A DNA stretch of 64,000 bases, taken from contig NZ_CP062938.1 in assembly GCF_014898155.1 (NCBI RefSeq), positions 2,856,840 to 2,920,839 of the forward strand, given 5' to 3'. The number at the start of each line of letters is the position of its first letter. The stretch's first letter is position 1. The translations under genes were made by a program, and so were the position numbers. The stretch is from Bifidobacterium eulemuris. GTDB taxonomy: Bacteria; Actinomycetota; Actinomycetes; Actinomycetales; Bifidobacteriaceae. Under the pieces are notes generated by a model that searched no databases, was not told the DNA's origin, and saw only the letters and a list, made by a program, of their open reading frames with translations. Below, in pieces: positions 36,059 through 59,944 of the stretch.

Positions 36059-37033
36059 ATGACAACGGCGAATGGTGTCAAACCGGGCAAGGTGCTGCTG
36101 GTCGGCGAGCCCATGGGATTGTTTTCCGCCAATCAGGAGGGGCCTCTCAGCGAAGTCGGCGTATGGACCGCTTCGGTGGCCGGCGCCGAACTCAATGTGG
36201 CAATCGGCTTGAAAAGGCTTGGGCAGGACCCTCTGTATATGACCAAGATCGGCGACGATCCTTTGGGTGAACGCATCATGGCGTTCCTGGACGCCAATGG
36301 TTTGGACACCTCGCTGGTGCGGGTGGACGGCGGGCATCACACCGGTTTCATGATGAAGTCCCGCGTGAGCGAGGGCGACCCGAAAACCTTCTATTACCGT
36401 AAAGATTCGGCGGCTTCGACGCTGGGGGCCGACGACGTGGAGCGGCTTGATTGGACCGACATTTCCCTGACCCATATCACCGGCATCCTTCCGCCGCTGA
36501 GCGATTCCACGTTGGAGGCCGCCTATGCGCTGGTCGACCAGGCCCGGGAGCACGGAGCCTTCGTCAGCTTCGACCCGAATCTGCGCCCCGCCCTATGGAA
36601 AAGCGAGGACGTGATGACATCCACGCTGCGTCGGCTGGCCTCGCGCGCAGATCTGGTGATGCCAGGCATCGGCGAAGGGCAGGTGCTGTTCGGCGTGGAT
36701 ACCGTGGAGGACACCGCCAAAGCGTTTCTGGACAATGGCGCGAAAATCGTCATCGTCAAGGACGGTCCCCGCGGCGCCTACGCGTCCGACGGGTCGGCTG
36801 AGATCCGTGTGCCGGGCTTCGTCGTCGACCATGTGGTCGACACCGTCGGTGCCGGCGACGGCTTCGCCGCCGGAGTGCTGTCCTCGCTGTTGGAGGGTGG
36901 GGATCTCGCCGACAGTATGGAACGCGGCTGCGCGTTGGGTGCCATCCAGACGCAGCAGGTTTCGGACAACGAAGGGCTGCCTACGCCCGATCAGCTTGCG
37001 GAGTTCATCGCCGTCCACAAGCGGGCCGTCTGA
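36059..37033 (+). CDS. kdgK: 2-dehydro-3-deoxygluconate kinase (PfkB family)
   Basis: 324 residues. PfkB-family sugar kinase that phosphorylates KDG to KDPG. The N-terminal substrate loop (VAGAELNVAIGLKRLGQDP) and the catalytic VDTVGAGDGFAAGVL, with the base Asp in GAGDGF, are intact; MMKSRVSEGDPKTFYYRKDS resembles the KDG kinase lid. The next gene encodes KDPG aldolase, 49 bases downstream, which supports KDG over other sugars. GAGGCAAAG precedes ATG 36059. The upstream 35841-36058 holds the operator-like site and no gene. Confidence 0.9.
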   Translation: MTTANGVKPGKVLLVGEPMGLFSANQEGPLSEVGVWTASVAGAELNVAIGLKRLGQDPLYMTKIGDDPLGERIMAFLDANGLDTSLVRVDGGHHTGFMMKSRVSEGDPKTFYYRKDSAASTLGADDVERLDWTDISLTHITGILPPLSDSTLEAAYALVDQAREHGAFVSFDPNLRPALWKSEDVMTSTLRRLASRADLVMPGIGEGQVLFGVDTVEDTAKAFLDNGAKIVIVKDGPRGAYASDGSAEIRVPGFVVDHVVDTVGAGDGFAAGVLSSLLEGGDLADSMERGCALGAIQTQQVSDNEGLPTPDQLAEFIAVHKRAV

Positions 37034-37082
37034 GGCCACGTCGTCACGCGAATCGATACGGAAAAGGAAAGGACATCGAATC

Positions 37083-37736
37083 ATGAGCATCGCACGAACC
37101 AATGAGAAGACCATCGCCTACCTTGGCGAGCTGGGCATCGTGCCGTTGGTCACCCTGCATTCCGTCGAGGAGGCCGTGCCGCTGGCCCGCGCCCTTGAGG
37201 AGGGCGGTGTGCCCGTCGCGGAGGTCACCTTCCGTTCCCCGTATGCGATCGAGGGAATGAAGGCGATCGCCGCCGAAGTGCCCGGCGTCACGCTGGTGGC
37301 CGGCACCGTGCACGACGTCGACCAGGCCAAGGCCGCCGTCGAGGCCGGATGCGTCGGGTTGGTGACCCCCAGTTTCGACGAGGCCGTGGTCGATTGGGCT
37401 CTTGCGAACGATGTGCTGGTGCTGCCCGGCACCGCCGTGCCCTCCGATGTGGAGAAGGCCTACGACCGTGGTCTCAGGCACGTCAAGTTCTTCCCCGCCG
37501 AGGCCTACGGGGGAGTCAAGACGCTGAAGGCGCTGAACGGCCCGTTCGCCGATGTGAGGTTCCTGCCCACCGGCGGCGTGAGCCTCGCCAACGCGCGGGA
37601 CTATCTGTCGCTGGAGAATGTGTTCGCCATCGGCGGTTCCTTCCCTGTGCCGTCGGAGGCCCAGAAGGCCCATGATTGGGATGCCATCGTCCAAGCGTGC
37701 AAGGATTCCCGCGCCGTGGTGGAACAGGTCCGCTGA
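37083..37736 (+). CDS. eda: KDPG/KHG aldolase
   Basis: 217 residues of the class I KDPG aldolase family, splitting 2-keto-3-deoxy-6-phosphogluconate into pyruvate and glyceraldehyde-3-phosphate. The Schiff-base lysine is Lys135 (RHVKFFPAEAYGG) and the proton-relay Glu47 lies in PVAEVTFRS. The family's FLPTGGVSLANARDYL phosphate site is present. It forms an operon with kdgK and is the exit step for all uronate routes in this locus. GAAAGGACA precedes the ATG. Confidence 0.92.
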   Translation: MSIARTNEKTIAYLGELGIVPLVTLHSVEEAVPLARALEEGGVPVAEVTFRSPYAIEGMKAIAAEVPGVTLVAGTVHDVDQAKAAVEAGCVGLVTPSFDEAVVDWALANDVLVLPGTAVPSDVEKAYDRGLRHVKFFPAEAYGGVKTLKALNGPFADVRFLPTGGVSLANARDYLSLENVFAIGGSFPVPSEAQKAHDWDAIVQACKDSRAVVEQVR

Positions 37737-37751
37737 GGCGGCTTTCTCATA

Positions 37752-37805
37752 CGCGGTTTCGGCCGCGCCGCGCTGGCTTATTTCGCGTGGCGCGGCCGAA
37801 ACGCG
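37752..37805 (+). terminator. Hairpin after eda
   Basis: Arms CGCGGTTTCGGCCGCGCC (37752-37769) and complement (37789-37805) with a 19-base loop; no T run, so it may act with Rho or as an mRNA stabiliser. Confidence 0.6.
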
Positions 37806-37845
37806 TTATGGGAGATTCGAAACCAAATGTCGGTGCAACACAGCG

Positions 37846-37859
37846 TGGAATCGTTTGCA
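37846..37859. promoter_or_regulatory. LacI-type operator before the first lacI gene
   Basis: TGGAATCGTTTGCA fits the LacI-family consensus TGNAANCGNTTNCA at every defined position. It lies 73 bases before the regulator start, near a TTACACT -10-like element, consistent with autoregulation. Confidence 0.75.
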
Positions 37860-37931: not shown

Positions 37932-38936
37932 ATGAGTGACGCAACGATTCAGGATGTGGCGCAGGCGGCGGGGGTGTCCGCCGCCACGGTGTCCAGGGCC
38001 TTGAACAACGGTTCGGTGAAGCAGGCGACGCGCGACCGCGTGCGCAAGGCCGCCGACAGGCTGGGGTATAAGCCGAACGCCGCGGCGCGCGATCTGATCG
38101 CGGGGAAAAGCGGCAAGGGGAATATCGCGGTGTTCGTCACCGACGTCGGCAATTTCTATTTCACCGATCTGTTCAAAGGCCTGTTCGCGCAGGCGCAGTC
38201 GTTGGGATATCGTCTGTTCGTGGCCGATCTCGAGCTGACCAACGATGTGGAGCGGACCGTCGGCGATGTGGTGTCCAGCTGCGAAGGGCAGGTGGTGGTG
38301 TCCCCGCGTATTTCGGACACGCTGATCCGCCGCTTGTTCCCCCAGCGCAACACCGTGCTGGCGAACCGTCAGATCGAGGGGTATACGGATGTCTGCATCG
38401 ACGACCGTTCGGGTATCATGCAGGCGGTGCGCCACCTCGCTTCGCTGGGGCATAAACGCATCGCCTATATCTCCGGGCTGTCGCATTCGTGGAGCAACCG
38501 CGCCCGTATCGATGCGGTTTCGCGGGGATGCGAGGAGTTCGGCGTTGAATGCGTGGCCATCGGGCCCTTCGAGCCCACCTACGGCGGCGGTGTGAACGCG
38601 GGCGATGCGCTGATGCTGGAGGAGGGCGTCACCGCGGTGATCGCGTTCAACGACCTGGTGGCCTCCGGCGTGGTTTCGCGCCTCGTTGAACGGGGATTGT
38701 CCATTCCGGAGGATATCAGCGTGATGGGCATCGATGATTCCGTGCTGTCGCGCGCCTCCCGTCCGCAGATGACCACGATCGATGTGCGGCAGGAACGTAT
38801 GGGTTCCCAGGCCGTGCGGTTGTTGGCGGAGCTGTTGGACGCCGAGCGCGAGGGCGTCGAATTCGAGCCGGTGTCGCATATGATTCCGGAAATTCTGATC
38901 ACAAGGGATTCCACTGCGGCAGCACGTATTTCATAG
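37932..38936 (+). CDS. LacI-family transcriptional regulator (no. 1)
   Basis: 334 residues. The N-terminal helix-turn-helix is TIQDVAQAAGVSAATVSRAL followed by the hinge region, and the rest is a periplasmic-binding-like sugar sensor (NFYFTDLFKGLFAQAQ; GVTAVIAFNDLVASGVVSRL; MGIDDSVLSRASRPQMTTID). Operator TGGAATCGTTT(G/A)CA copies lie before this gene and before the ABC importer that follows it, so it probably represses both until an oligouronide or other sugar binds. Terminated by a hairpin with a T run. Confidence 0.92.
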   Translation: MSDATIQDVAQAAGVSAATVSRALNNGSVKQATRDRVRKAADRLGYKPNAAARDLIAGKSGKGNIAVFVTDVGNFYFTDLFKGLFAQAQSLGYRLFVADLELTNDVERTVGDVVSSCEGQVVVSPRISDTLIRRLFPQRNTVLANRQIEGYTDVCIDDRSGIMQAVRHLASLGHKRIAYISGLSHSWSNRARIDAVSRGCEEFGVECVAIGPFEPTYGGGVNAGDALMLEEGVTAVIAFNDLVASGVVSRLVERGLSIPEDISVMGIDDSVLSRASRPQMTTIDVRQERMGSQAVRLLAELLDAEREGVEFEPVSHMIPEILITRDSTAAARIS

Positions 38937-39159: not shown

Positions 39160-40455
39160 ATGAAGAACATCAAGAAGATCCTCGCCGGCGCCACCGCCGT
39201 GGCGACCCTGATGGCCATGGCCGCCTGCGGGTCCTCCAATGAGTCCGGCGACGCAAGCGACTCGCAGAACCTGACCATCGCCTGGTGGGGCAACCAGGAC
39301 CGCAACGAAAAGCAGGATGCGGTCGACAAGGCGTTCGAAGCCGCGAACGAGGGCGTGAGCATCGACGGCCAGCCCTCCGAGTGGAGCGACTACTGGCAGA
39401 AGCTGTCGACCTCGGCCGCCGGCGACAGCATGCCCGACGTGATCGCCATGGACTACTCCTATTTCAACGAATATGTGGAGAACGGCCTGATCATCCCGCT
39501 CGACGAATACATCGAGGACGGCACCATCGACACCACCAATATCGATGAATCCATTCTCGCCTCCGGCCAGAAGGACGGCTCCCAGTACCTGATCTCCTCC
39601 GGATCGTCCTCGCCGGCCATGATCTACAACAAGACCCTGCTCGACGAGGCCGGCATCGAAATGCCCGAGGAGATGGATCTTGACGAATTCAAGGCCCTCG
39701 CCAAGGAGGTCTACGAGAAGACCGGTGTGAAAACCAACTTCCGCTACTACGAGGCCTCCGAGCTGCTCGAGTACGTGATGCGCGGCGAAGGCAAGACTCT
39801 GTTCGAGGACGAGGGTCTGGGCGTGACCGCCGAGGATGTGGAGCCCTACTTCGACGTCTATGAGGAGGGCATCAGCGAAGGCTGGCATATCAGCCCCGAG
39901 GTGTTCGCCGAGATCACCGCCGGCTCCGTCGACCAGGATCCGGTGGTCTATGGCTCCGATCCGTCCTCCATGTCGTGGGTGTCCTTCAAGTTCACTTCGC
40001 AGATGCCCGCCATGCAGGCCCTGACCGATGACGATCTGGCGCTCGCCCCGTGGCCGGCCGCCGACGTGACCGCGGCCAACTACATCAAGCCGGGCCAGTT
40101 CTGGGCCATCTCCAAGTCCTGCGAGAACCCGCAGCTTGCCGCCGAGTTCATCAACTACTACACCAACAACGAGGAAGCGGTCACGACCATGGGCACCGAC
40201 CGAGGCCTGCCCGTCTCCTCCGCGATGATGACCGTTCTGGAAGAGCAGCTGAGCGCCGACGAGCAGGAGATCGCGACCTTCCTCAACGATGTGGTGACGC
40301 CGAACTCGTCGGCCATCAACCCGCCGTCCCCGGCCGCCGCCTCCACCGTCAACTCCCAGACCCTTCCCGAAATCGAGGAGAACATCCTTTACGGCGCCAT
40401 CACCGCCAAGGACGCCGCGGCGACCTTCGTGGAAGAGGCCAACGCCGCCTACTAA
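39160..40455 (+). CDS. ABC transporter sugar-binding lipoprotein (family 1)
   Basis: 431 residues. A lipoprotein signal peptide ends at Cys23 (MAMAAC), so it is anchored outside the membrane. The mature part begins with a Gly/Ser/Asp-rich linker and the typical LTIAWWGNQDRNEKQDAVDK strand-helix of family-1 sugar-binding proteins; WYWxxP-type aromatic ligands are spread as in oligosaccharide binders. It delivers a saccharide, probably an oligouronide given its neighbours, to the two permeases. No ATPase is encoded, so a shared MsmK-type ATPase is expected elsewhere. Confidence 0.92.
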   Translation: MKNIKKILAGATAVATLMAMAACGSSNESGDASDSQNLTIAWWGNQDRNEKQDAVDKAFEAANEGVSIDGQPSEWSDYWQKLSTSAAGDSMPDVIAMDYSYFNEYVENGLIIPLDEYIEDGTIDTTNIDESILASGQKDGSQYLISSGSSSPAMIYNKTLLDEAGIEMPEEMDLDEFKALAKEVYEKTGVKTNFRYYEASELLEYVMRGEGKTLFEDEGLGVTAEDVEPYFDVYEEGISEGWHISPEVFAEITAGSVDQDPVVYGSDPSSMSWVSFKFTSQMPAMQALTDDDLALAPWPAADVTAANYIKPGQFWAISKSCENPQLAAEFINYYTNNEEAVTTMGTDRGLPVSSAMMTVLEEQLSADEQEIATFLNDVVTPNSSAINPPSPAAASTVNSQTLPEIEENILYGAITAKDAAATFVEEANAAY

Positions 40456-40625: not shown

Positions 40626-41582
40626 ATGTCTCAGGCATCTGCTGCTCCCGGTCGCCGTCTCGGCAATGCGGGCGTGCAGTTCAAGAAGCAAGGCAGATTC
40701 GCGCGGTTCATGACCTCGGAGAAGACCTCCGGCGTGGTGTGCGCGTTGCCGTTCATCATCGGTTTCCTCGTGTTCCTTCTGGTGCCGATCCTCCTGTCGT
40801 TCTACTACACGCTCACCGACTATTCGATCATCGGCGAGGCGGAGTTCATCGGTCTGCAGAACTACATCGATATGTTCTCGGACGACAAGTTCTTCAAATC
40901 GCTGGGCGTGACCTTCTTCTACGCGCTGGTCTCCACCCCGCTGCGACTCGTGTTCGCCCTGTTCGTGGCCATGCTGCTGCTGAAGAACTCCAAGGTCTCC
41001 GGCTTCTACCGCGCGGCCTACTATCTTCCTTCGATCCTGGGCGGCTCGGTGGCCGTGGCCATTCTGTGGAAGCAGATGTTCGCCGCGGACGGCGTGATCA
41101 ACCAAGTGCTCGGCATGTTCGGTCTGGAGACCGACTTCGCGTGGCTGGGCAACGAGTCCACCGCCATCTGGACCCTGATCATCCTGGGCGTATGGCAGTT
41201 CGGCTCGTCCATGCTGATCTTCCTGGCCTCCCTCAAGCAGATCCCGACCGAATTGTACGAGGCCGCGAGCGTGGACGGCGCCTCGAAGGCCCGCCAGTTC
41301 TGGAAGATCACCCTGCCTCTGCTGACCCCGACCATCTTCTTCAACCTGGTCATGCAGTCGATCAACGGCTTCCTGGCATTCACCCAGTGCTACATCATCA
41401 CCCAAGGCAAGCCGCGCAACTCCACCCTGTTCTACATGGTCTACATGTACGACGAGTCCTTCACCCGCCACCACGCCGGCTACGGCGCGGCCCTGGCCTG
41501 GGTCATGCTGCTGATCGTGGGCCTGTACACCGGGTTCCTGTTCCTTACCAAGCGTTTCTGGGTCTATGACGAGGAGGCCTGA
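40626..41582 (+). CDS. ABC sugar transporter permease 1 (MalF-like)
   Basis: 318 residues, six membrane helices after a basic cytosolic start. The permease EAA loop is EAASVDGASKARQFWKITLP. AAAGG precedes ATG 40626. It pairs with the next permease to form the membrane channel of a CUT1-type importer. The opening SGVVCALPFIIGFLVFLLVP is typical of the MalF/UgpA branch. Six bases separate its stop from the next start. Confidence 0.94.
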   Translation: MSQASAAPGRRLGNAGVQFKKQGRFARFMTSEKTSGVVCALPFIIGFLVFLLVPILLSFYYTLTDYSIIGEAEFIGLQNYIDMFSDDKFFKSLGVTFFYALVSTPLRLVFALFVAMLLLKNSKVSGFYRAAYYLPSILGGSVAVAILWKQMFAADGVINQVLGMFGLETDFAWLGNESTAIWTLIILGVWQFGSSMLIFLASLKQIPTELYEAASVDGASKARQFWKITLPLLTPTIFFNLVMQSINGFLAFTQCYIITQGKPRNSTLFYMVYMYDESFTRHHAGYGAALAWVMLLIVGLYTGFLFLTKRFWVYDEEA

Positions 41583-41587: not shown

Positions 41588-42502
41588 ATGACCACCGCAA
41601 CCCTCAACCCCACCCCCGCGCATAAGGCCGACGTGCCCGTGCATGTGACCCGCGAGACCAACTGGCGTCATATCGCCGGCCGCGTGGTCTACCATGTGTT
41701 CGTCATGGCGTTCGCCCTGCTGATGATCTACCCGATCATCTGGATGGTGTTCTCCGCGTTCAAGCCCACCGACACGGTGTTCGCCACCGCGGGCCAGCTC
41801 ATCCCCACCGAATGGACGCTGGACAACTTCGTCAACGGCCTCAAGGGCTTCATGGGCACCGGATTCGTCCGCTTCATGGGCAACTCCCTGCTCATCGCCG
41901 TGATCGCCACCGCCGGCACCATCGCCAGCTCCGCCATCACCGCGTACGCGCTGAGCCGACTGAAGTTCCCCGGACGCAAGATCCTGTTCATCGCGATGCT
42001 CGTCTCCATGATGCTGCCCGCGCAGGTGCTTATGGTCCCGCAGTACATCTGGTACCAGAAGCTCGGCTGGACGGACAGCTACCTGCCGCTGATCGTGCCC
42101 TACTGCTTCGCGATTCAGGGATTCTTCATCTACCTGATCATGAACTTCATCGATGGAATCCCGCGCTCGCTCGACGAGGCCGCGAAAATCGACGGCTGCT
42201 CCTACTACGGCATCTTCTTCCGCGTGATCGTCCCGCTGATCACCCCGGCCGTGGTTACGGGCTGCATCTTCAGCTTCATGTGGCGGTGGGACGACTTCCT
42301 CTCGGCCCTGCTGTACGTGAACAAAACCGAATGGTATCCCGTGTCTCTGGCGCTCAAGCTGTTCTCCGACCCGTCCTCGGGCTCGGACTACGGCGCCATG
42401 TTCGCCATGGCCTCGATCTCCATCCTGCCGTCCGTCCTGATCTTCCTGTTCTTCCAGAAGCATCTGGTCCAGGGCGTGGCCACCTCCGGCCTCAAGGGCT
42501 GA
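41588..42502 (+). CDS. ABC sugar transporter permease 2 (MalG-like)
   Basis: 304 residues, six helices. The MalG-type signatures are FALLMIYPIIWMVFSAFKPT, the MLVSMMLPAQVLMVPQYIWY helix and the EAA loop DEAAKIDGCSYYGIFFRVIV. The C-terminus LVQGVATSGLKG is standard for this class. Co-transcribed with permease 1. A hairpin follows before the DUF624 gene. Confidence 0.94.
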   Translation: MTTATLNPTPAHKADVPVHVTRETNWRHIAGRVVYHVFVMAFALLMIYPIIWMVFSAFKPTDTVFATAGQLIPTEWTLDNFVNGLKGFMGTGFVRFMGNSLLIAVIATAGTIASSAITAYALSRLKFPGRKILFIAMLVSMMLPAQVLMVPQYIWYQKLGWTDSYLPLIVPYCFAIQGFFIYLIMNFIDGIPRSLDEAAKIDGCSYYGIFFRVIVPLITPAVVTGCIFSFMWRWDDFLSALLYVNKTEWYPVSLALKLFSDPSSGSDYGAMFAMASISILPSVLIFLFFQKHLVQGVATSGLKG

Positions 42503-42562: not shown

Positions 42563-42719
42563 GCCCCCCGCACCGTGCGGACCCGGCCCGTCCCGTCCGC
42601 GTCACGCCGGCCCGCGCCGCGCTGTCCCGGTCCGTCCGAGTCCCCGCCGGTCGCGTCCGTCCTATCCGTCCCCTCCCGTCCCATCCGTTCGTCTCACTAT
42701 TTCAGGCATGGTGATTCCT

Positions 42720-43433
42720 ATGGCATTGAACCTGTATGGTCTGTTCTACGGCGGCTCGTCCCACGAGTCGGACCGCCAGCGCGATCCCAAAGGCGTCGCG
42801 CTGCTCCTCTCCGTGGTCAAATGGCACTGGTCCCGACTGATCGGCCTCAACCTGCTGTTCCTGCTCACCTGCGTTCCCATCGTGACCATTCCCTGCGCCA
42901 TGGCCTCCATGAGCCGTGTGACGGGACTGCTGATCCGGCGCAAGGTTTGCTATCCCGTCCACGACTATCTCACGACGTTCCGTACGGAATGGAAACGCTC
43001 CGCACTGGCCGGATGGGCCATGCTGCTGGTGTTGGCCGCCGCGCTGGTCGGCGTGTGGTTCTATCCGCGCGTCCACCCCGGCACACCGGGCATGATGGCG
43101 GCCGGAGCGCTGCTGGTCGTGGCTGTTCTGGACGCGTGCGCCATGATGTATCTCTTCCCGATGGTCGCCTTCACCGATCTGCCGGTCGGCAAACTGCTGA
43201 CCAACAGCGTGCTGCTGCTGTTCATGCGCCTGCCCCAGAGTCTGCTCGCCCTCGTGGCCATGCTCGCCCTGGTCGCGCTCAGCTGGGCGGGGCAGCTCGT
43301 CACCGTGTGGGTGATGCCCCTGATCGGGTTCAGTCTGATCAGTCTGATCGGCGTCTACGCCGCCTGGCCCGCGCTGCGCCGTCATGTCATCGTCGACGAC
43401 GACCCCGATCCCGCGGCGGCCCGGACCGCCTGA
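42720..43433 (+). CDS. DUF624 (YesL-like) membrane protein
   Basis: 237 residues with five or six membrane helices; the segment LIGLNLLFLLTCVPIVTIPC and the following AMASMSRVTGLLIRRK match the DUF624/YesL family. These proteins regularly accompany CUT1 sugar importers; in Bacillus the yes rhamnogalacturonan cluster has one. Their role in transport is not known. ATG 42720 is chosen over ATG 42708 because GGTGA lies seven bases before it. Confidence 0.85.
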   Translation: MALNLYGLFYGGSSHESDRQRDPKGVALLLSVVKWHWSRLIGLNLLFLLTCVPIVTIPCAMASMSRVTGLLIRRKVCYPVHDYLTTFRTEWKRSALAGWAMLLVLAAALVGVWFYPRVHPGTPGMMAAGALLVVAVLDACAMMYLFPMVAFTDLPVGKLLTNSVLLLFMRLPQSLLALVAMLALVALSWAGQLVTVWVMPLIGFSLISLIGVYAAWPALRRHVIVDDDPDPAAARTA

Positions 43434-47256: not shown

Positions 47257-47293
47257 ACGGACGGCTGGGCGGCGCCGCCGGCCTCTGCAATCC

Positions 47294-49077: not shown

Positions 49078-50079
49078 ATGAGCGAGGGCAAGGTGACGAT
49101 CCGCGACGTGGCGAGGGAGGCCGGCGTATCCCCATCCACCGTCTCCCGCGCGTTCGCCCGACCCGACCGTGTGAGCGCCGCCACCGCCACCATCATCTTC
49201 GACGCGGCCAACCGACTGGGCTACCACAGCGAACCGGTGCAGACCGTGCCGCTGCGCGGCATCCGCGGCGTCATCGCCGTCATCGTGCCCGATATCGCCA
49301 ACCAATTCCTCTCCGACGTGATCCGCGCCGTGCAGCATGAATGCGACACGCACGACTACGCGCTGATTGTGGCCGAATCACGCGAAAGCGCCTCCATGGA
49401 ACGCACCGCCTTCGACCGCATCGCCCCGCTGGTCGACGGCGCGATCCTCACCTCGTCGCGCATGCCCGACGCGATGATCCGCAAATGCGCGCAGACCCGG
49501 CCCATCGTCTCGGCCAACCGCATCGTGCGCGGCGTGGACAGCGTGGTCATCGACATCAACGACGGCGTCGAACAGCTCGCCGACCATATCCAACGCATGG
49601 GATTCGACCGCGTCACCTATCTCGACGGGCCCGCCACCTCATGGTCGGTGGGATTCCGCTGGCATACCGTCTCGCAGGCCTGCGCGGCGCGTGGGATCGC
49701 CGCGCGCAGACTATGGCCGGGCGCTCCCACGGTGGAGGGCGGCTTCGCCTTCGCCGGAAAATACCTCGACGATCCCACCGGCATGGTCGTGGCGCACAAC
49801 GATCTGATGGCCGTCGGCTTCATGGCCGCCATGCGGCGACAGGGCAGGCACTGCCCACAGGATTATTCGATCGCGGGATTCGACAACGATCTGATCGGGC
49901 AGATCTCGCAGCCGACGTTGACCACGGTCCGCCAGTCGCCCGCCCTGATGGGCACGCGTGCGGCGCGCATCCTCTTCGACCGGCTCAAAGGGGAGCGCCC
50001 CGCGCAGGACATCACCACCGTGCCCACCTCGCTGATCATACGCGAGAGCACCCGCCGCCCGGGCGGGGAAGGCGCGTGA
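49078..50079 (+). CDS. LacI-family transcriptional regulator (no. 2)
   Basis: 333 residues. The helix-turn-helix is TIRDVAREAGVSPSTVSRAF; the sensor core runs from GVIAVIVPDIANQFLSDVIR to PTLTTVRQSPALMGTRAARI. GGAGGGGAG precedes ATG 49078. It resembles regulator no. 3 (both have a LWPG-PT-EGG segment followed by GKYL-DPTG), so the two are paralogues. It is placed between uxaB and uxaC and is a candidate controller of the TTGGCAACA sites. Confidence 0.92.
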   Translation: MSEGKVTIRDVAREAGVSPSTVSRAFARPDRVSAATATIIFDAANRLGYHSEPVQTVPLRGIRGVIAVIVPDIANQFLSDVIRAVQHECDTHDYALIVAESRESASMERTAFDRIAPLVDGAILTSSRMPDAMIRKCAQTRPIVSANRIVRGVDSVVIDINDGVEQLADHIQRMGFDRVTYLDGPATSWSVGFRWHTVSQACAARGIAARRLWPGAPTVEGGFAFAGKYLDDPTGMVVAHNDLMAVGFMAAMRRQGRHCPQDYSIAGFDNDLIGQISQPTLTTVRQSPALMGTRAARILFDRLKGERPAQDITTVPTSLIIRESTRRPGGEGA

Positions 50080-50130
50080 CGCCGTTCGGTCGGCATCCAT
50101 ATGGCCGGCGGCGAACCCCGTCCACAACGT

Positions 50131-50139
50131 TTGGCAACA
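50131..50139. promoter_or_regulatory. TTGGCAACA operator-like site before uxaC
   Basis: TTGGCAACA inside the imperfect palindrome CGTTTGGCAACAAACG (50128-50143), 68 bases before the uxaC start. Confidence 0.6.
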
Positions 50140-50206
50140 AACGGGCGTAAGCGGCCGTCGTCTCCTTAAGCTGACGGCACGACGCAACCAGCATGAAGGA
50201 GTGCAT

Positions 50207-53190: not shown

Positions 53191-53299
53191 TGGCGGCACC
53201 TGCCCCAGGCTTTCGCGGGCCGGCGGCATGGCCTAGACTGGTTGGCGACGCCGGTCGGCGAAGAACGCCCAACACGTGAAGCATTGCGGGAGGCTGCCC

Positions 53300-54319
53300 A
53301 TGAAGAAGGTCACGATACGCGACGTCGCCAAAGCGGCCGGAGTGGCGCCCTCGACGGTTTCGCGTGCGTTGAGCGCCACCGAGCGGGTGAGTTCGGAGAC
53401 GACGCGACGCATCTTCGAAATAGCCGAACGCCTCGGATACCAGATGCCCGGCGACGAGGCCGCCGCCCCTTCGCCGGCGCTGAGGCGTCTGCTCGGCATC
53501 GTCGTGCCCGATCTGACCGATTCGTATTGCGCCGCCGTCACGCACGCCGTGGAGCATGAATGCTTCGGACATGGGTTCTCCCTGGTGGTCGCCGAATCGC
53601 GCGGCAGCGTCTCCTGGGAGCGTATGGCGCTCGACGGGGTGCTGAGGAACTGTGATGGCGCGCTGCTGTTCTCATCGCGGATGCAGAACGCGCAGATACG
53701 CGAGTACGCCGACCGTCTGCCGTTGGTGGTGATGGACCGGCAGATCAGGGGAGTGGGGTGTGTGGTCGTGGATCTGACGGCGGGTATCGGCCAGGCCATG
53801 AGCCTGTTCGCCGTGCGCGGCTACGAGCGCGTCACCTATCTGGCCGGCCCGGGCTTCGCCAAGGACGCGGCCTACCGTCTCAAAACGTTGGAATCCGCCT
53901 GCGACGAGCACGAACTCGCCGTGCGTCATCTGTGGCCCGGCGACCCCACCTTCGAGGGCGGACGGGCCTTCGTCGGCAAATATCTCGAGGATCCCACCGG
54001 CGCGGTGATCGCCTATAACGACATGATGGCGTTGGGATTCATGGCCGGCATGCGCGAACGGGGATACGAAGCGCCCCACGACTACGCGATCATCGGATTC
54101 AACGACAACGTCTCGGCCCGGGCGGCGACCCCGGCGTTGACCAGCGTGCGCATGTCCGCCGACGCGCTGGGCTCGTCCGCGGCACGTCTGCTGATGCGCC
54201 GGCTTGAGGGGGCGGGGGATGACGAGTCCCTTCGCGACGCCTATGTGACGGTGCCGTCCTCGCTGGTGCTGCGTGGCAGCGTCGGCACCGCGGAGCGCAA
54301 CGAAAGGCGACGGACATGA
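53300..54319 (+). CDS. LacI-family transcriptional regulator (no. 3)
   Basis: 339 residues. The helix-turn-helix is TIRDVAKAAGVAPSTVSRAL, and the sensor starts at RLLGIVVPDLTDSYCAAVTH. GGGAGG lies six bases before ATG 53300; the longer upstream frame is not used. A paralogue of regulator no. 2. Its stop overlaps the start of a LacI-type sensor that has no DNA-binding domain (ATGA overlap), so the two proteins are made together and may form a mixed oligomer. Confidence 0.92.
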   Translation: MKKVTIRDVAKAAGVAPSTVSRALSATERVSSETTRRIFEIAERLGYQMPGDEAAAPSPALRRLLGIVVPDLTDSYCAAVTHAVEHECFGHGFSLVVAESRGSVSWERMALDGVLRNCDGALLFSSRMQNAQIREYADRLPLVVMDRQIRGVGCVVVDLTAGIGQAMSLFAVRGYERVTYLAGPGFAKDAAYRLKTLESACDEHELAVRHLWPGDPTFEGGRAFVGKYLEDPTGAVIAYNDMMALGFMAGMRERGYEAPHDYAIIGFNDNVSARAATPALTSVRMSADALGSSAARLLMRRLEGAGDDESLRDAYVTVPSSLVLRGSVGTAERNERRRT

Positions 54320-55236
54320 ACAACGCACAGATGATGCAGTCAACCGTGGGGCCTTTGGACCGGGTCGAAGGTCTGATCACGCTCGCCATGCCCTCGATAT
54401 CACGCCCCTACCGCGCCCAGCTCGCTTCCACGGTGATCGCCGAGGCCCGCTCGCATGGCTGGCGGGTGGATATGGTCGTCTACCAGGACGAATGGGGACT
54501 GAGCGCCGAGGAATATCTCGACACCCGGCATGGGCCGTGCGATGGCCTGCTGCTGTATCTCGTGGGCGACGACACCCTGAGCGAGCGGGCGCTCACGCAG
54601 CCGTTCCCCGTGGTGTGCATGGGGCCGCGCCGCCAGACCTACGGCATGGCCGACCAGGTGTTGGCCGACAATGTGGCCGACGCGCGCAACGCGACCGAAC
54701 TGCTCATCTCCGCCGGCAGCCGCAGACTTGTGCTGCTGGGGGCGCAGGCCGCCTTCGACGGCGTCGCCGTGGACGCGACGCGCGAGACCACGCGCGGCTG
54801 GGAGCGCGTGCGCGGAGTGCTCGAAGCATGCGAGACGCATGGCGTCGCCTTGGATCCGGCGCTGATAGGCGTGACGGGGAACGAATGGACCATCGGCGCC
54901 GGCTATGAGACGATGATGCGTCTGGCCCGTGCGGACGCGCCGTTCGACGGCATCGTCGCATTGAACGACCAACTGGCCATCGGCGCGCTGTTCGCGATGA
55001 AGATGCTCGGCCGTGACGTGCCCCGCGAGGTGCAGGTCGTGGGATTCGACAACACCTTCGAAGGCGAACGCATGGTTCCTCCGCTGACCTCCGTGGATTC
55101 CAACATCACATGGATCGCGTCCGCCGCCGTCGACCTGCTTTCCCGGCGTATCCACGAACGCGCCGCCGGATACGACGTCGAGGCGGTGCGGTTCCAGCGC
55201 GAATCGATGATCGTGTTGCGCGGTACGACGCGCTAA
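54316..55236 (+). CDS. LacI-type ligand-sensor protein without DNA-binding domain
   Basis: 306 residues. After about 18 non-conserved residues it goes straight into the LacI sensor core (GLITLAMPSISRPYRAQLAS), with the expected FDGIVALNDQLAIGALFAMK, VVGFDNTFEGERMVPPLTSV and DLLSRRI segments. The 55-residue helix-turn-helix and hinge of LacI proteins are missing. There is no signal peptide, so it is not a periplasmic-type binding protein. Translationally coupled to LacI no. 3 by an ATGA overlap. It may tune that regulator as a heteromer; this is inference. Confidence 0.85.
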   Translation: MNNAQMMQSTVGPLDRVEGLITLAMPSISRPYRAQLASTVIAEARSHGWRVDMVVYQDEWGLSAEEYLDTRHGPCDGLLLYLVGDDTLSERALTQPFPVVCMGPRRQTYGMADQVLADNVADARNATELLISAGSRRLVLLGAQAAFDGVAVDATRETTRGWERVRGVLEACETHGVALDPALIGVTGNEWTIGAGYETMMRLARADAPFDGIVALNDQLAIGALFAMKMLGRDVPREVQVVGFDNTFEGERMVPPLTSVDSNITWIASAAVDLLSRRIHERAAGYDVEAVRFQRESMIVLRGTTR

Positions 55237-55481
55237 GAAACAGATGGTGCAACAAGAACGCAACAAAGTTGTTGCCATCATTTGCTGAGCGCGGATGACA
55301 CGCGGCTGAGATGGTTGATATATCAATAATCCTATCGTCTTGGGCTGTTGCGCAAATGTTGCGTATTAAGCTGAAATTAATGCAACATACAAAGTATGTG
55401 TGTTGCGCCGAATATCATTCCTGTCACGATCGACGCCAATGGCATCGCAGCCGCGCCGATCAGGCCTCCAAGGAGGGAAGC
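55237..55481. promoter_or_regulatory. Palindrome-rich control region before the GPH transporter
   Basis: The 245 bases hold no gene. They contain GCAACAAAGTTGTTGC (55260-55275, continuing CA; reverse strand reads TGGCAACA), the perfect 12-base palindrome TTGATATATCAA (55315-55326), TGTTGCGCAAATGTTGCG (55346-55363) and an imperfect palindrome at 55382-55406 with arms GCAACATAC/GTATGTGTGTTGC. They are A/T-richer than the flanks. Confidence 0.7.
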
Positions 55482-57089
55482 ATGGCTGAACAAGCGGTTC
55501 CGCAACAGCGCAAGGTGGGATTCCTCACCCGTCTCGGATATGGGTCCGGCAATCTCGTCGGATCGGGCGCGCTCGCGATCTCGGCCTCATGGCTGACGAT
55601 CTTCTACACCACCTACTGCGGTCTGAGCATGGCCCAGGCGACGTTCATCTACTCGTTCGCCCTGATCGCCGATGTGGTCATGAACCCCATCGCCGGATTC
55701 ATCTCCGATTCCTTCAACAACACCAAACTCGGCCGTCGTTTCGGCCGCCGCCGCTTCTTCATCCTCATGGCCGTGCCGGCCCTGGGCATCCTCAACCCGC
55801 TGATGTGGATCGTGGTTCCCGGAGGATTCTGGTACTACTTCGTGATCTATCTGGTGTACAACCTCATCTACACCACCGTGATGATCCCCTACGACGCGCT
55901 GCCCGCCGAGATGACCGGCGACTTCAAGGAACGCACCTATCTGTCCGGCCTGCGCTCCATCTTCGGCAAAGGCGCCAACTTCCTGACCGCGGCGCTGCCC
56001 GGCGTGTTCTTCGTGACCTTCGGCGAGAAGAACCCGATGGCGTTCTTCTACATGGGCCTGGCATTCGGCGTCATCATGGCCGGTGCCATGCTGTTCGTGT
56101 ACCTGACCACATGGGAGCGTCCCGTCGACGACACCACCATGGAGAAGGTCGACAACCCGCTCGAAGCCCTGAAGAAGCTGTTCGTCGACATCTTCTCCAC
56201 CCTGCGCATCCGCACCTTCCGCCACCTGCTGGGCATGTACCTCTTCGGCTTCGGCGCGGAATGGCTGTTCAACTCCACCTTCAGCTACTACGTGGTCTAC
56301 GTGCTCATGCTCCAGAAGTCCAACGCCTCCTGGTGGCAGTCGCTCAGCCCCATCCTGCAGGTCGTCTCCACGCTCGGCGTCATGTTCCTCATCGCGAAGA
56401 TCGGCTTCAGGAAGCCCTACATCATCGCCGAATGCGTGATCATCACCTGCGCCATCGCCTACGCGGCCTGCGGATTCTTCCATCTGGACGCCTCGTCCGC
56501 CGCCGGCATGGTCGCCATCACCTCCATCGTGGTCGTGTTCGGTCTGGGCACCGGCGCCGTCTACTACATCCCATGGCAGACGTACCTGTTCGTGGCCGAC
56601 GCCGACGAGATCGTCACCGGCCGCCGCCGCGAGGGCACCTTCTCCGCCGCCATGCACCTGTGCGGCAAGCTGATGAACTCCGCCGTCGTCGCCATCCTCG
56701 GCACCGCGCTGGCCGCCGCCGGATTCATCGAATCCACCGCCGACAACCAGGTGGCCGCCGCCGACCAGCCGGCCGCCGTGCACACCACCATCCTGCTGGT
56801 GCTCGTCATCGGCGTGGGCGGCCTGTCCCTGCTCGGCATGCTCTCCGCCCATCTGATGAAGATGGACAAGAAGAACGACGAGATCGCCATCGCGGAATGC
56901 GAGCGCATCAAGAACGGCGGCCGCATGGAGGACGTCGACCCCGAGGTCAAGCGCATCTGCGAGGAGCTCACCGGCGTCCAGTACGAGATCTGCTTCGGAC
57001 ACAACACCGTCGGCTACCACACGCCCGAGGAGCTCGCCCGCATCAAGGCCGAACTGCCGGAGCGCAAGGCGCTGAACTTCGGCAAGTAA
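55482..57089 (+). CDS. GPH-family sugar:cation symporter
   Basis: 535 residues with about twelve helices. The start (FLTRLGYGSGNLVGSGALAI), the loop DSFNNTKLGRRFGRRRFF and IPYDALPAEMTGDFKERTYL are typical of glycoside-pentoside-hexuronide symporters; the long C-terminal tail (about residue 450 onward) is hydrophilic. In this locus the cargo is probably a uronide or short unsaturated oligouronide destined for the GH105 gene that follows. AAGGAGGG precedes ATG 55482. It has its own operator-rich promoter region. Confidence 0.9.
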   Translation: MAEQAVPQQRKVGFLTRLGYGSGNLVGSGALAISASWLTIFYTTYCGLSMAQATFIYSFALIADVVMNPIAGFISDSFNNTKLGRRFGRRRFFILMAVPALGILNPLMWIVVPGGFWYYFVIYLVYNLIYTTVMIPYDALPAEMTGDFKERTYLSGLRSIFGKGANFLTAALPGVFFVTFGEKNPMAFFYMGLAFGVIMAGAMLFVYLTTWERPVDDTTMEKVDNPLEALKKLFVDIFSTLRIRTFRHLLGMYLFGFGAEWLFNSTFSYYVVYVLMLQKSNASWWQSLSPILQVVSTLGVMFLIAKIGFRKPYIIAECVIITCAIAYAACGFFHLDASSAAGMVAITSIVVVFGLGTGAVYYIPWQTYLFVADADEIVTGRRREGTFSAAMHLCGKLMNSAVVAILGTALAAAGFIESTADNQVAAADQPAAVHTTILLVLVIGVGGLSLLGMLSAHLMKMDKKNDEIAIAECERIKNGGRMEDVDPEVKRICEELTGVQYEICFGHNTVGYHTPEELARIKAELPERKALNFGK

Positions 57090-57095
57090 CATATC

Positions 57096-57129
57096 GAAGG
57101 CCGTCCTCCGCGCGAGAGGGCGGCCTTTC
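57096..57129 (+). terminator. Hairpin between GPH transporter and GH105 genes
   Basis: GAAGGCCGTCCTC and GAGGGCGGCCTTTC arms with a short loop; the three T tail is weak, so it may be a partial terminator. Confidence 0.6.
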
Positions 57130-57146
57130 CCGCGACAAGGAGAACC

Positions 57147-58292
57147 ATGGGAAGCTCACGCATCCTCAACACCTACATCCAGCAGCTCATCGAGACCTCG
57201 ACGCCGGAGGCGCCCGCGTGGAACATCGAGAAGATTCGCGCCGGCAAACCGAACACGTGGAACTACATCGACGGCTGCATGATCAAGGCGCTGATCGAAC
57301 TCAACGAGATCACCGGCAAAGACGTCTACCTCGACTTCGCGGACCGGTTCATCGACTACTTCGTCGACGACGACGGCATGATCGCCAGCTATGACCCGCT
57401 TGAATACAATCTCGACAACATCAACGCCGGCAAGACGCTGTATGGACTGTACAACATCACCGGCAAAACCAAGTACCGCAAGGCCATGGACGTGATCTAC
57501 GGCCAGCTCGAAGGCCAGCCGCGCACCAAGGAAGGCAACTTCTGGCACAAGCTCATCTACCCCAACCAGGTGTGGCTGGACGGTCTGTACATGGCCCAGC
57601 CTTTCTACGTGCAGTACGAGCTGAGCTACCGCGACGGACGCGCCTGCTCCGACTCCTTCCACCAGTTCCAGGTGGTGCACGATCTGATGCGCAACGAGCG
57701 CAACGGACTGTACTACCATGCCTACGATTCGTCGCGCAAGGACTTCTGGTGCGATCCGGTCACCGGACTGTCGTCCAACTTCTGGCTGCGCGCCGAAGGA
57801 TGGTTCGCGATGGCGCTGATCGACACGTGGGAGCTGCTTCCGGCCAATATGAGCGCCGAGAAGGACACGATGCGCCGCATGTTCAGCGAGCTGGTCGACG
57901 CCATGCTGCCCTATCAGGACGAGAAAACCGGCATGTGGCATCAGGTGATCAATCTGGGCCGCATCGCGCCGAACTATCTGGAGACCTCCGGATCGGCCAT
58001 CTTCGCCAACGCGATCATGAAAGGCGCGCGTCTGGGCGTGCTCGACGAACGCTACTGGGATTACGGATACAAGGCCTACAAGGGCATCTGCGACACCTGC
58101 ATGAACGAGGAAGGCGGACGCCTCACACTCGACAACATCTGTCTGGTCGCCGGCCTGGGCAACACCGAACACCGAGAAGGCACCTTCGACTACTACATGA
58201 GGGAGCCCAAGGTTCGCAACGACGCCAAGGGCGTCGCGCCGCTCGTCCTCGCGTACATCGAGGTGCTGCGGCATGAGCGCGGCAAGCGCTGA
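57147..58292 (+). CDS. GH105 unsaturated (rhamno)galacturonyl/glucuronyl hydrolase
   Basis: 381 residues, no signal peptide. The alpha/alpha-barrel of the YteR/GH105 family is recognisable: WNYIDGCMIKALIELNE, the central YPNQVWLDGLYMAQPFY with the likely catalytic Asp145, and GLSSNFWLRAEGWFAMALID. It removes the 4,5-unsaturated uronic acid from the end of lyase-generated oligosaccharides, giving 4-deoxy-5-keto-uronate. ACAAGGAGA precedes the ATG. The next two genes encode the two enzymes that take this product to KDG. Confidence 0.93.
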   Translation: MGSSRILNTYIQQLIETSTPEAPAWNIEKIRAGKPNTWNYIDGCMIKALIELNEITGKDVYLDFADRFIDYFVDDDGMIASYDPLEYNLDNINAGKTLYGLYNITGKTKYRKAMDVIYGQLEGQPRTKEGNFWHKLIYPNQVWLDGLYMAQPFYVQYELSYRDGRACSDSFHQFQVVHDLMRNERNGLYYHAYDSSRKDFWCDPVTGLSSNFWLRAEGWFAMALIDTWELLPANMSAEKDTMRRMFSELVDAMLPYQDEKTGMWHQVINLGRIAPNYLETSGSAIFANAIMKGARLGVLDERYWDYGYKAYKGICDTCMNEEGGRLTLDNICLVAGLGNTEHREGTFDYYMREPKVRNDAKGVAPLVLAYIEVLRHERGKR

Positions 58293-58295
58293 CGC

Positions 58296-58303
58296 TGGCA
58301 ACA
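58296..58303. promoter_or_regulatory. TGGCAACA operator-like site before the KduD/DhuD-type gene
   Basis: TGGCAACA then GCATGCAACC; it follows the GH105 stop immediately and lies 91 bases before the dehydrogenase start. Confidence 0.5.
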
Positions 58304-58393
58304 GCATGCAACCAATTTGGTCTGAGCGACTCGTTCGGCTTCAATACAACATCAACGGCCGTCGCGGATGACGGCACAGAAAGGACGGATGAC

Positions 58394-59200
58394 ATGACAT
58401 TCGATATGGGCAGGTTCTCGTTGGAGGGCAAGGTGGCGCTGGTCACCGGCGCCTCCTACGGCATCGGCTTCGCCATCGCCTCGGCCTTCGCCGCGGCGGG
58501 CGCGAAGATCGCGTTCAACGACATCAACGAGGAGGCTTTGGAGCGGGGCAAACAGGCCTATGCCGAAGCCGGCATCGACGCCCGCGGCTATGTGGCCGAC
58601 GTCACCGACGAGGAGCAGGTCGCCCGACTCGTCGCCGATATCGAGCGCGATCTGGGCACCGTCGACATTCTGGTCAACAACGCGGGCATCATCAAGCGCG
58701 TCCCCATGCTCGACATGCCCGTCGAGGACTGGCGCAAAGTCATCGACGTCGACCTCAACGCCCCCTTCATCGTCTCCAAAGCCGTCATCCCCGGCATGAT
58801 CGCCAAAGGCCACGGCAAAATCATCAACATCTGCTCTATGATGAGCGAGCTCGGCCGCGAAACCGTCTCCGCCTACGCGGCGGCCAAGGGCGGTTTGAAA
58901 ATGCTCACCCGCAACATCTGCTCCGAATACGGCGAGGCCAACATCCAATGCAACGCCATCGGACCGGGCTATATCGCCACCCCGCAGACCGCGCCTTTGC
59001 GTGAGCTTCAGGCCGACGGATCGCGCCATCCCTTCGACCAGTTCATCATCGCCAAGACGCCGGCCGCCCGTTGGGGCACCACCGAGGATCTGCAGGGCCC
59101 CGCCGTGTTCCTCGCCTCCGACGCCTCCGACTTCGTCAACGGACACGTGCTGTATGTGGACGGCGGCATTCTGGCTTATATCGGCAAGCAGCCCGCCTGA
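58394..59200 (+). CDS. kduD: SDR dehydrogenase, KduD/DhuD type
   Basis: 268 residues of the short-chain dehydrogenase family. The cofactor motif TGASYGIG lies at about residues 17-24, NNAG at about 96, and the catalytic Tyr161-x3-Lys165 in SAYAAAKGG. The set of motifs matches 2-dehydro-3-deoxy-D-gluconate 5-dehydrogenases, which reduce 2,5-diketo-3-deoxygluconate to KDG with NAD(P)H. The GH105 gene upstream and the isomerase downstream support this assignment over other SDR functions. GGATGAC precedes the ATG. Confidence 0.85.
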   Translation: MTFDMGRFSLEGKVALVTGASYGIGFAIASAFAAAGAKIAFNDINEEALERGKQAYAEAGIDARGYVADVTDEEQVARLVADIERDLGTVDILVNNAGIIKRVPMLDMPVEDWRKVIDVDLNAPFIVSKAVIPGMIAKGHGKIINICSMMSELGRETVSAYAAAKGGLKMLTRNICSEYGEANIQCNAIGPGYIATPQTAPLRELQADGSRHPFDQFIIAKTPAARWGTTEDLQGPAVFLASDASDFVNGHVLYVDGGILAYIGKQPA

Positions 59201-59305
59201 TCGAAGTAAATCGCGCGGTGACGGAGCGCCTTGAAGTCGCACACGTCACCGCGCGATTTACCGGATAGACAATTGGATAATTTCAACAGCAAAGGAAAAC
59301 AACCG

Positions 59306-59944
59306 ATGCGCATCGCTTTGATCAATGAGAATTCCCAGGCCGCCAAGAACGGTCTGATCTACGAGGCCCTGAAGAAGGTCGCCGACGAGAAGGGATTCGA
59401 AGTCGACAACTACGGCATGTACGCGGCCGACGACGACGCCCAACTCACCTACGTGCAGAACGGCATCCTCGCCGCGGCCCTGCTCAACACCGGCGCGGCC
59501 GACTTCGTGGTCACCGGCTGCGGCACCGGCGAAGGCGCCATGCTCGCCCTCAACTCCTTCCCGGGCGTGATCTGCGGGCACGTCGAGGACCCGCTCGACG
59601 CCTACACCTTCGCGCAGATCAACGACGGCAACGCCATGGCCATCCCCTTCGCCCTGAAGAACGGCTGGGGGCAGGAACTCCAACTCAAGTACATCTTCGA
59701 ACAGATGTGGCTCGAGGCGCCGGGCTCCGGCTATCCCAAGGACCGTGTGGTTCCGGAACAGCGCAACAAGAAGATCCTCGACGGCGTGCGCGAAGCCGCC
59801 TTCAAGCCGCTGGTCGACATCTACAAGGCCCTCGACCCCGAACTGGTCAAAGGCGCGTTCGCCGGAGCGCGTTTCAAGGAGCTCTTCTCCGCCCACGCGG
59901 CCGACGGCGAGATCAAGGACTATGTGCTGTCGCTAGTTGGATGA
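59306..59944 (+). CDS. RpiB/LacA/LacB-family isomerase, probable 4-deoxy-5-keto-uronate isomerase (DhuI-like)
   Basis: 212 residues. MRIALINENSQAAKNGLIYE opens the fold and VVTGCGTGEGAMLALNSFPG is the RpiB/LacA active-site loop; the C-terminal ~60 residues are an extension absent from RpiB itself. Relatives of this length (DhuI of streptococcal hyaluronan clusters, also called KduN) interconvert 4-deoxy-5-keto-uronate and 2,5-diketo-3-deoxygluconate, replacing KduI. Directly after the KduD-type gene and near GH105, this is the expected role. AAAGGA precedes ATG 59306. Confidence 0.8.
   Translation: MRIALINENSQAAKNGLIYEALKKVADEKGFEVDNYGMYAADDDAQLTYVQNGILAAALLNTGAADFVVTGCGTGEGAMLALNSFPGVICGHVEDPLDAYTFAQINDGNAMAIPFALKNGWGQELQLKYIFEQMWLEAPGSGYPKDRVVPEQRNKKILDGVREAAFKPLVDIYKALDPELVKGAFAGARFKELFSAHAADGEIKDYVLSLVG

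Follow-up and report, generated by a model that had tools for sequence, protein, structure and literature searches.

A predicted island for the import and breakdown of pectic fragments, with two uronate branches, in Bifidobacterium eulemuris

Bifidobacteria are metabolically defined by the phosphoketolase (bifid) shunt, their route for hexoses. Uronates are handled in the E. coli-type isomerase pathway by UxaC, UxaB and UxaA followed by KdgK and Eda. The text on the marmoset Bifidobacterium MARM_A1 describes two pectin islands, PI-1 and PI-2, and cites B. vespertilionis as pectin-degrading (PMC8406136), and GH28 and GH115 have been listed as typical of the species found in hosts that eat fruit and insects (PMC8074910). 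A 'type D' dhuD-dhuI cluster has been reported in six Actinomycetota strains (PMC12838403); the term 'Bifidobacter' is not found in the main text of that report, its tables lying outside this scope. Here we analyze a stretch of 64,000 nucleotides from B. eulemuris (the window; positions 2856840-2920839 of a single 2,920,839-base contig, NZ_CP062938.1), in which some two dozen genes form a block that probably serves the import of small pectin fragments and the catabolism of acidic sugars off the usual sugar pathway.

Gene families were called by Pfam and NCBIfam profile scans, using the curated equivalog cut-offs of NCBIfam. The plus strand carries all 21 called genes from secA through dhuI, and the locus sits between trpD and pknB, in an interval that runs from window position 35753 onward. 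An earlier interpretation of this DNA from its letters alone (the sequence-only reading) had listed a set of enzyme families, two GH28 proteins, and two importer types, all of which profile search recovered at or very near the expected positions, the importers being of the ATP-binding cassette (ABC) and GPH types. The predicted uptake and catabolic genes are as follows, where KDPG is 2-keto-3-deoxy-6-phosphogluconate, KHG is 4-hydroxy-2-oxoglutarate, KDG is 2-keto-3-deoxygluconate, DHU is 4-deoxy-L-threo-5-hexosulose uronate and SDR is short-chain dehydrogenase/reductase.

36059..37033, plus strand: KdgK candidate, PfkB-family sugar kinase (Pfam PfkB 1.4e-57); adjoins Eda in the relatives G041 and B. 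oedipodis too
37083..37736, plus strand: Eda, KDPG/KHG aldolase (Pfam Aldolase 4.9e-58; TIGR01182 208.6 bits against a cut-off of 156)
39160..40455, plus strand: ABC solute-binding protein, YesO-like, with a lipoprotein-like start (SBP_bac_8 1e-25; YesO 5z6b 3.6e-58)
40626..41582, plus strand: ABC permease (BPD_transp_1 1e-14)
41588..42502, plus strand: ABC permease (BPD_transp_1 6.6e-21)
43540..45627, plus strand: GH115-family protein, alpha-glucuronidase candidate (Glyco_hydro_115 4.8e-53; BtGH115A 5by3 7.8e-19)
45685..47256, plus strand: GH28 a, exo-polygalacturonase-like (Glyco_hydro_28 1e-17; exopolygalacturonase 2uve 4.8e-36); intact in the window copy
47431..48876, plus strand: UxaB, tagaturonate reductase, altronate-forming (PRK03643 528.6 bits against a cut-off of 359)
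50201..51616, plus strand: UxaC, uronate isomerase (Pfam UxaC 4.4e-187; PRK02925 577 bits against a cut-off of 387)
51607..53190, plus strand: GH28 b, exo-galacturonidase-like, PglA-type (Glyco_hydro_28 6.4e-34, scanned from 51619, with an ATG at 51607; exo-poly-alpha-D-galacturonosidase 3jur 5.8e-37; PglA model 416 bits, under its cut-off of 600)
55482..57089, plus strand: GPH-family cation symporter (MFS_2 4.4e-50; GPH model 113 bits, under its cut-off of 231)
57147..58292, plus strand: GH105, YteR-like unsaturated (rhamno)galacturonyl hydrolase (Glyco_hydro_88 6.3e-87; 4wu0 3.1e-87; YteR 1nc5 8.2e-58)
58394..59200, plus strand: DhuD, KduD-type SDR forming KDG (PRK07097 499 bits against a cut-off of 369; 3cxr 1.5e-141; gbs1891 4u8g 6.8e-136)
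59306..59944, plus strand: DhuI, DHU isomerase, RpiB fold (PRK09273 295 bits against a cut-off of 137; gbs1892 4u8e 1.5e-79)

E-values such as those of UxaC (4.4e-187), GH105 (6.3e-87) and Eda (4.9e-58) exclude chance matches. The last two enzymes had been labeled KduD and KduN. An SDR and an RpiB/DUF3666 isomerase (PF02502 with the DUF3666 tail PF12408) are indeed present, but they are better named DhuD and DhuI, being near the streptococcal gbs1891 and gbs1892. KduD models fall under cut-off for DhuD; the model that it matches, PRK07097, carries the name gluconate 5-dehydrogenase, and that matched by DhuI, PRK09273, the name hypothetical protein.

These genes make a uronate route ending in KDPG aldolase, which bears out the Entner-Doudoroff-like lower branch proposed earlier. 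The accompanying claim of a complete route from oligouronides holds for the unsaturated branch, whose five members (GH105, DhuI, DhuD, KdgK and Eda) all lie within 36059-59944, but not for the saturated branch, which lacks its dehydratase there: no altronate or mannonate dehydratase is found among the scanned window genes. A UxaA candidate with the architecture SAF, GD_AH_second and GD_AH_C instead lies outside the window, at contig 24261-25898 (L007:4261-5898), about 10 kb downstream of dhuI and past an artificial contig end, and lies in the corresponding interval in both relatives, G041 and B. oedipodis. The dehydratase gap in the window is thus explained by the position at which the contig was cut. 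Taken together, the locus is very probably a carbohydrate island of at least partly lateral origin that imports short pectic fragments and feeds both uronate branches through KDG into KdgK and Eda.

Under this scheme, short pectic fragments from other organisms, most likely of rhamnogalacturonan type together with oligogalacturonate, would enter through the YesO-type ABC importer, and the GPH symporter would take up mono- or disaccharides. Inside the cell, the GH28 enzymes would free galacturonate, GH115 would strip glucuronate side groups and GH105 would free unsaturated uronate. Saturated uronate is predicted to pass through UxaC, UxaB and UxaA to KDG, and unsaturated uronate, as DHU, through DhuI and DhuD to the same intermediate, from which KdgK and Eda would yield pyruvate and glyceraldehyde-3-phosphate, skirting the fructose-6-phosphate phosphoketolase step. 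Because uronate use by this route is redox-neutral down to pyruvate, stoichiometric reasoning leads us to expect acetate and formate with little lactate.

The artificial contig end follows from a large terminal duplication:

45854..64000, no strand: assembly overlap, the same DNA as contig 1-18163 (99.88% identity, 0 mismatches, 22 single-base gaps)

About 18 kb are shared between the two contig ends because the circular chromosome was left untrimmed. Nineteen of the 22 gaps are deletions in the window copy, all from 61369 on, and in the remaining three it is the contig-start copy that has lost a base, twice in GH28 a and once in UxaB, so that both frames are broken there. The frameshifts past 61.3 kb look like contig-end errors. 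A pseudogene interpretation of the broken reading frames after 61.3 kb was rejected, the contig-start duplicate having separate, longer open frames; the 19 single-base deletions account for the permease fusion and the missing binding-protein frame in the window copy. Genes would be disrupted by these deletions at both contig ends however the assembly is annotated. Beyond dhuI, the contig-start copy encodes a second importer (two permeases, a binding protein and a DUF624 protein), a second GH115 and a fifth LacI-type protein, and further on a minus-strand TIM-barrel protein, the UxaA candidate and then a PASTA-domain kinase. The TIM-barrel protein (AP_endonuc_2; L007:3189-4229, minus strand) lies near UxaA in three genomes and has no NCBIfam match at E<=1e-30. 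At L006:14340-15077 (window about 60196-60933), an SGNH-esterase-like start, recognized by eye, is followed by a frame change at which both assembled copies agree, and the open reading frame downstream of it has no Pfam match.

Related loci occur at the same place in two relatives. SecA is 97% identical in genome G041, which we take to be B. lemurum, a species placed in one clade with B. eulemuris (PMC8074910); the corresponding value for B. oedipodis is 87%. The genes from kdgK to dhuI are collinear in G041 at 92-100% identity, save for a LacI-like protein described below (82%), and UxaA comes next at 99%; the G041 locus has no second importer/GH115 module. B. oedipodis carries a reordered relative of the locus at the same trpD-pknB site, with high identity for the GPH symporter (93%), GH105 (95%), DhuD (87%), DhuI (90%), UxaA (89%) and the permeases and binding protein of the second importer (87-94%), and 64-82% for the other shared genes. 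Its locus also contains GH2, GH3, UxuA, UxuB-like, IclR, SDR and amidohydrolase genes, and a separate copy of the first YesO-type importer was not detected there.

We also looked at the insertion site in eight Eda-less members of the genus chosen from the survey lists, six of which carry GH115. In G001, G015, G066 and G003, the trpD-pknB gap measures about 1.6 to 3.1 kb and no locus proteins were detected inside it. In G016, G024, G017 and G074, GH115, GPH and ABC genes are distributed over the two sides of trpD; the 20-kb stretch reached pknB in two of these four and ended too early in the other two. The presence of glycan genes at trpD in four of the eight chosen genomes indicates repeated use of this site: trpD-pknB is a recurrent insertion site for different glycan-use cassettes.

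Across 112 Bifidobacterium genomes, the window's own included, Eda is found in 19, DhuI in 13, GH28 in 30 and GH115 in 31. A UxaC-family gene occurs in 30: in 14 genomes the best match scores 589-626 bits (close UxaC), in the other 16 only about 243-262 bits (divergent UxaC). Eda is present in all 14 close-UxaC genomes (P 4.8e-14) and in all 13 DhuI genomes (P 8e-13), both values being uncorrected for shared ancestry, and close UxaC and DhuI occur together in 11 genomes. GH28 accompanies close UxaC in 12 of 14 genomes and Eda in 13 of 19. Among UxaC-bearing genomes behind the named records tested (of 37 loci found), 21 of 22 carry Eda, the exception being Galliscardovia ingluviei. The statement that bifidobacteria rarely use uronic acids is therefore too strong, given the counts for Eda, DhuI and GH28 and the pectin islands already described in the text of PMC8406136. 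With KDPG aldolase in 19 of the 112 genomes, 15 of which also carry a UxaC-family gene, the genus appears metabolically less uniform than the textbook picture.

B. eulemuris itself has a second uronate locus, at contig 1.114-1.121 Mb (within L058, contig 1106001-1126000), encoding a divergent UxaC, a second Eda copy (at about 1.116 Mb), a PfkB kinase, UxuA and a UxuB-like dehydrogenase. This UxaC scores above the PRK02925 cut-off and the dehydrogenase under that for fructuronate reductase; UxuA, the mannonate dehydratase, is a single gene, at contig 1.118 Mb. With this gene set, glucuronate may have a route of its own.

The island's substrates can be approached through its importer and hydrolases. 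YesO is the best solved relative of the binding protein (3.6e-58), with a far weaker match to 2uvh (2.8e-17), which we take to be the Yersinia oligogalacturonate binder. Together with a GH105 nearest to 4wu0 and YteR, this favors unsaturated pieces of rhamnogalacturonan. The similarity of GH28 b to 3jur and of GH28 a to 2uve fits the release of free galacturonate, and the GH28 translations contain the active-site motifs NTD/NGD, GDD, GHG and R/H-I-K. Among the substrates put forward by the sequence-only reading, the importer and GH105 point more to rhamnogalacturonan-type fragments than to glucuronoxylan.

To assess location, we used a crude hydropathy check rather than a signal-peptide predictor, taking the best 15-residue mean within the first 45 residues. 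This value is 0.27-1.13 for GH115, GH28 a, GH28 b and GH105, and 1.94 for the binding protein; Eda (1.77) and DhuD (1.69) come nearer to the latter, which we attribute to their barrel and Rossmann strands. By this crude measure the four glycosidases within 36059-59944 have no signal-like start, in keeping with the cytosolic enzymes proposed earlier. The rhamnogalacturonan lyase family PF18370 was absent from the one genome searched (a control search recovered the family in B. subtilis), other pectinases not having been searched for. Together, the missing signal-like starts and the absence of PF18370 make cross-feeding, that is, uptake of fragments made by other organisms, likely.

An organism that degrades pectin itself, with lyases secreted from elsewhere in the genome, would have no need of cross-feeding. 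PF18370 is the sole lyase family searched genome-wide, and the pectin islands of MARM_A1 are said to include lyases (PMC8406136), both of which speak for this alternative; the absence of PF18370 in this genome and the glycosidase N-termini run counter to it, and we consider it doubtful. A different question is whether the island serves mainly glucuronate-bearing side chains, of glucuronoxylan or of arabinogalactan/gum, with pectin secondary: GH115 would free (4-O-methyl)glucuronate, and UxaC, UxuB and UxuA would convert it to KDG. Two GH115 genes in the locus would suit such a role, as would the second locus with its UxaC-type isomerase, UxuA, UxuB-like dehydrogenase, PfkB kinase and Eda. The island's own enzymes argue otherwise. 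UxaB scores above the cut-off for tagaturonate, the galacturonate branch, and far under that of fructuronate reductase; the dehydratase beside the island belongs to the altronate/galactarate type, and the single UxuA lies elsewhere; and GH28, a YteR-type GH105 and a YesO-type binding protein are pectin-associated. We judge a primarily glucuronate-directed island unlikely.

GH105 and unsaturated glucuronyl hydrolase (UGL, GH88) share one Pfam family, which bears on a further proposal, that DhuI, DhuD, KdgK and Eda act on glycosaminoglycan fragments, as in streptococci, instead of pectin. DhuD and DhuI match the solved gbs1891 and gbs1892, whose cluster is described as acting in glycosaminoglycan breakdown (PMC12838403). 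The same text presents DHU as common to the breakdown of both substrates, however, and the hydrolase next to dhuD is nearest to 4wu0 and YteR among solved structures, with the remaining island pectin-type. A glycosaminoglycan role is highly improbable.

Part of the island may have been acquired laterally. Among the best 120 of 7,996 DhuI relatives, the named top matches are from Bifidobacterium, most listed proteins being nameless, and beyond the genus names first appear with Lachnospiraceae proteins, at 77-81% identity. The top Lachnospiraceae match aligns across 94% of the query at 81% identity and so equals some within-genus values, B. choloepi in the same list standing at 78% with 100% coverage. 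This fits transfer from Bacillota, which has been proposed for dhuD-dhuI in Actinomycetota (PMC12838403, main text). An at least partly lateral origin fits this identity of DhuI across phyla, the single line of evidence drawn on here.

Several observations weigh against an island of pectic-fragment import and KDPG-aldolase catabolism as set out above. The GC content of the locus genes, overall and at third codon positions (GC3), is native-like, resembling secA and trpD, and lends no compositional support to recent transfer. Two enzyme names are candidates drawn from family and neighborhood rather than from a curated equivalog score: the KDG kinase models of NCBIfam fall far under cut-off for KdgK (174 against 400; 106 against 400), and the sole NCBIfam match of UxaA at E<=1e-30 is galactarate dehydratase, under cut-off. 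GH115 is far from characterized members (BtGH115A 5by3 7.8e-19) and is tied weakly to Eda across the genus (10 of 19 Eda genomes, P 0.011). Among genomes with only divergent UxaC, 15 of 16 lack Eda (KDPG aldolase, PF01081), and four genomes have Eda without UxaC, such that UxaC alone does not predict the KdgK/Eda lower branch. GH28 (30 of 112) and GH115 (31 of 112) are likewise commoner than Eda (19 of 112) and must often serve without it.

The remaining genes of the block include its putative regulators:

37932..38936, plus strand: LacI regulator 1 (Pfam LacI and Peripla_BP_3)
42708..43433, plus strand: DUF624 membrane protein (DUF624 5.3e-11; MusI family under cut-off)
49078..50079, plus strand: LacI regulator 2 (Pfam LacI 2.6e-13)
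53276..54319, plus strand: LacI regulator 3 (Pfam LacI 1.9e-14)
54316..55236, plus strand: LacI core (effector-binding) protein without a helix-turn-helix (HTH) domain (Peripla_BP_3 3.5e-22; LacI HTH, PF00356, unmatched)
35939..35946, plus strand: TGGCAACA, candidate shared operator half-site, upstream of kdgK

Three LacI regulators had been predicted; three full ones are present, but there is also a fourth LacI-like protein, at 54316-55236, that lacks the HTH. LacI 2 and LacI 3 occur in all three genomes (window, G041 and B. oedipodis), and these proteins may act through the octamer TGGCAACA. Further copies lie at 47295 (uxaB), 50132 (uxaC) and 58296 (dhuD), in reverse at 55270 (GPH), and at contig 24214 (uxaA). 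Of six copies in the window, five are intergenic and upstream of route genes and one is inside GH115, where intergenic DNA makes up 9.6% of 34592-59944; the seventh copy is 47 bases before uxaA, and the 34.6 kb of window to the left of the locus has none. Counted from the trpD end up to the kinase, the octamer has 7 copies in B. eulemuris, likewise 7 in G041, and 13 in B. oedipodis, compared with shuffle means of 1.02, 0.72 and 1.97, and in all three genomes 0 of 100 shuffles reach the observed count.

In G041, the octamer precedes the same six genes (kdgK, uxaB, uxaC, GPH, dhuD and uxaA), the seventh copy being inside UxaC. In B. oedipodis it is found 48-148 bases before kdgK, uxaC, GPH, dhuD and uxaA, and GH28 b and another GPH gene are preceded by it as well. 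Of the 13 copies, three are inside genes (GPH, GH105 and UxaA), one lies 1.1 kb before uxaC, and none is directly upstream of uxaB. The octamer was picked by eye and post hoc, in alignments of the window with G041 plus B. oedipodis for three stretches; the B. oedipodis sites before kdgK, dhuD and uxaA, unseen beforehand, serve as an independent test. These data make TGGCAACA a candidate operator of a uronate regulon and strengthen that interpretation. A 16-bp palindromic version was unsupported: its 3 sites, counted on both strands, make 6 matches, and shuffles average 2.0 and reach as many as 6. A separate motif, TGGAATCGTTTRCA, upstream of LacI 1 and of the importer, has 2 window matches compared with 0.46 expected, and 9 of 100 shuffles reach 2; as a possible operator it is a lead only.

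37846: TGGAATCGTTTGCA, candidate operator, upstream of LacI regulator 1
38997: TGGAATCGTTTACA, candidate operator, upstream of the YesO-like binding protein

The start of the HTH-less protein overlaps the LacI 3 stop by 4 bp, and the protein is kept beside LacI 3 in G041 and B. oedipodis. It belongs to a small subfamily: none of nine database clusters (P0001-P0009, P0001 being the window itself; 45-100% identity) has PF00356, two of them lying on contigs <1.7 kb and possibly cut, and the N-terminal domain is missing in 6 of 6 aligned members of the nine listed. The next matches, at 43% identity and below, mostly have PF00356 (best 120 of 1,279). That the HTH-less core is a sensor or dimer partner is a guess. 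A fuller picture, in which two parallel uronate branches form one shared-operator regulon, the phosphoketolase shunt is dropped on pectic substrates in favor of acetate and formate, and a LacI repressor is translationally coupled to the HTH-less core, which would sense an effector separately or join it in a dimer, is speculative and unlikely. Outside the locus, the window also contains a class A RNase P RNA (30001-30370, minus strand).

The presence of a KDPG aldolase in a minority of bifidobacteria is relevant to host diet and to research on pectin as a prebiotic, and the trpD-pknB site, with its differing glycan cassettes, offers a tractable system for studying island exchange. The gene block is well supported as real and coherent, with related blocks in a minority of relatives, and is not a new kind of system. 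A literature search of open-licence articles, supplements excluded, returned no description of the double-branched DhuI/UxaABC/Eda route in Bifidobacterium, from which we do not claim its absence from print.

Comparison with known systems places the locus among several of them. YesL of B. subtilis is a DUF624 protein, and the B. subtilis yes/yte system (YesO, YesL, YteR) resembles the island in its YesO-like binding protein, two permeases, DUF624 protein and YteR-like GH105; the island differs in its actinobacterial host, the addition of GH28 and GH115, and a genome without a PF18370 lyase. For each of the five steps of the E. coli-type isomerase pathway, a protein of the matching family is encoded within the locus or shortly past it, but here the genes occur in a bifid-shunt host and are spread among glycosidases across a 40-kb island. 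The 'type D' gbs1891-gbs1892 cluster of Streptococcus agalactiae shares the adjacent order DhuD then DhuI and strong sequence similarity, but its text describes UGL and phosphotransferase uptake for glycosaminoglycan fragments (PMC12838403), in place of the YteR-like GH105 and ABC and GPH uptake found here. Closest within the genus are PI-1 and PI-2 of MARM_A1, in which polygalacturonases, an unsaturated galacturonyl hydrolase and GH115 are likewise grouped in islands (PMC8406136), as GH28, an unsaturated uronyl hydrolase and GH115 are in the window. Likened by description only, MARM_A1 differs in its rhamnogalacturonan lyases, rhamnosidases and rhamnose genes, and the text on its islands does not mention the KDPG aldolase, UxaC and DhuI branch that characterizes the B. 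eulemuris locus (PMC8406136).

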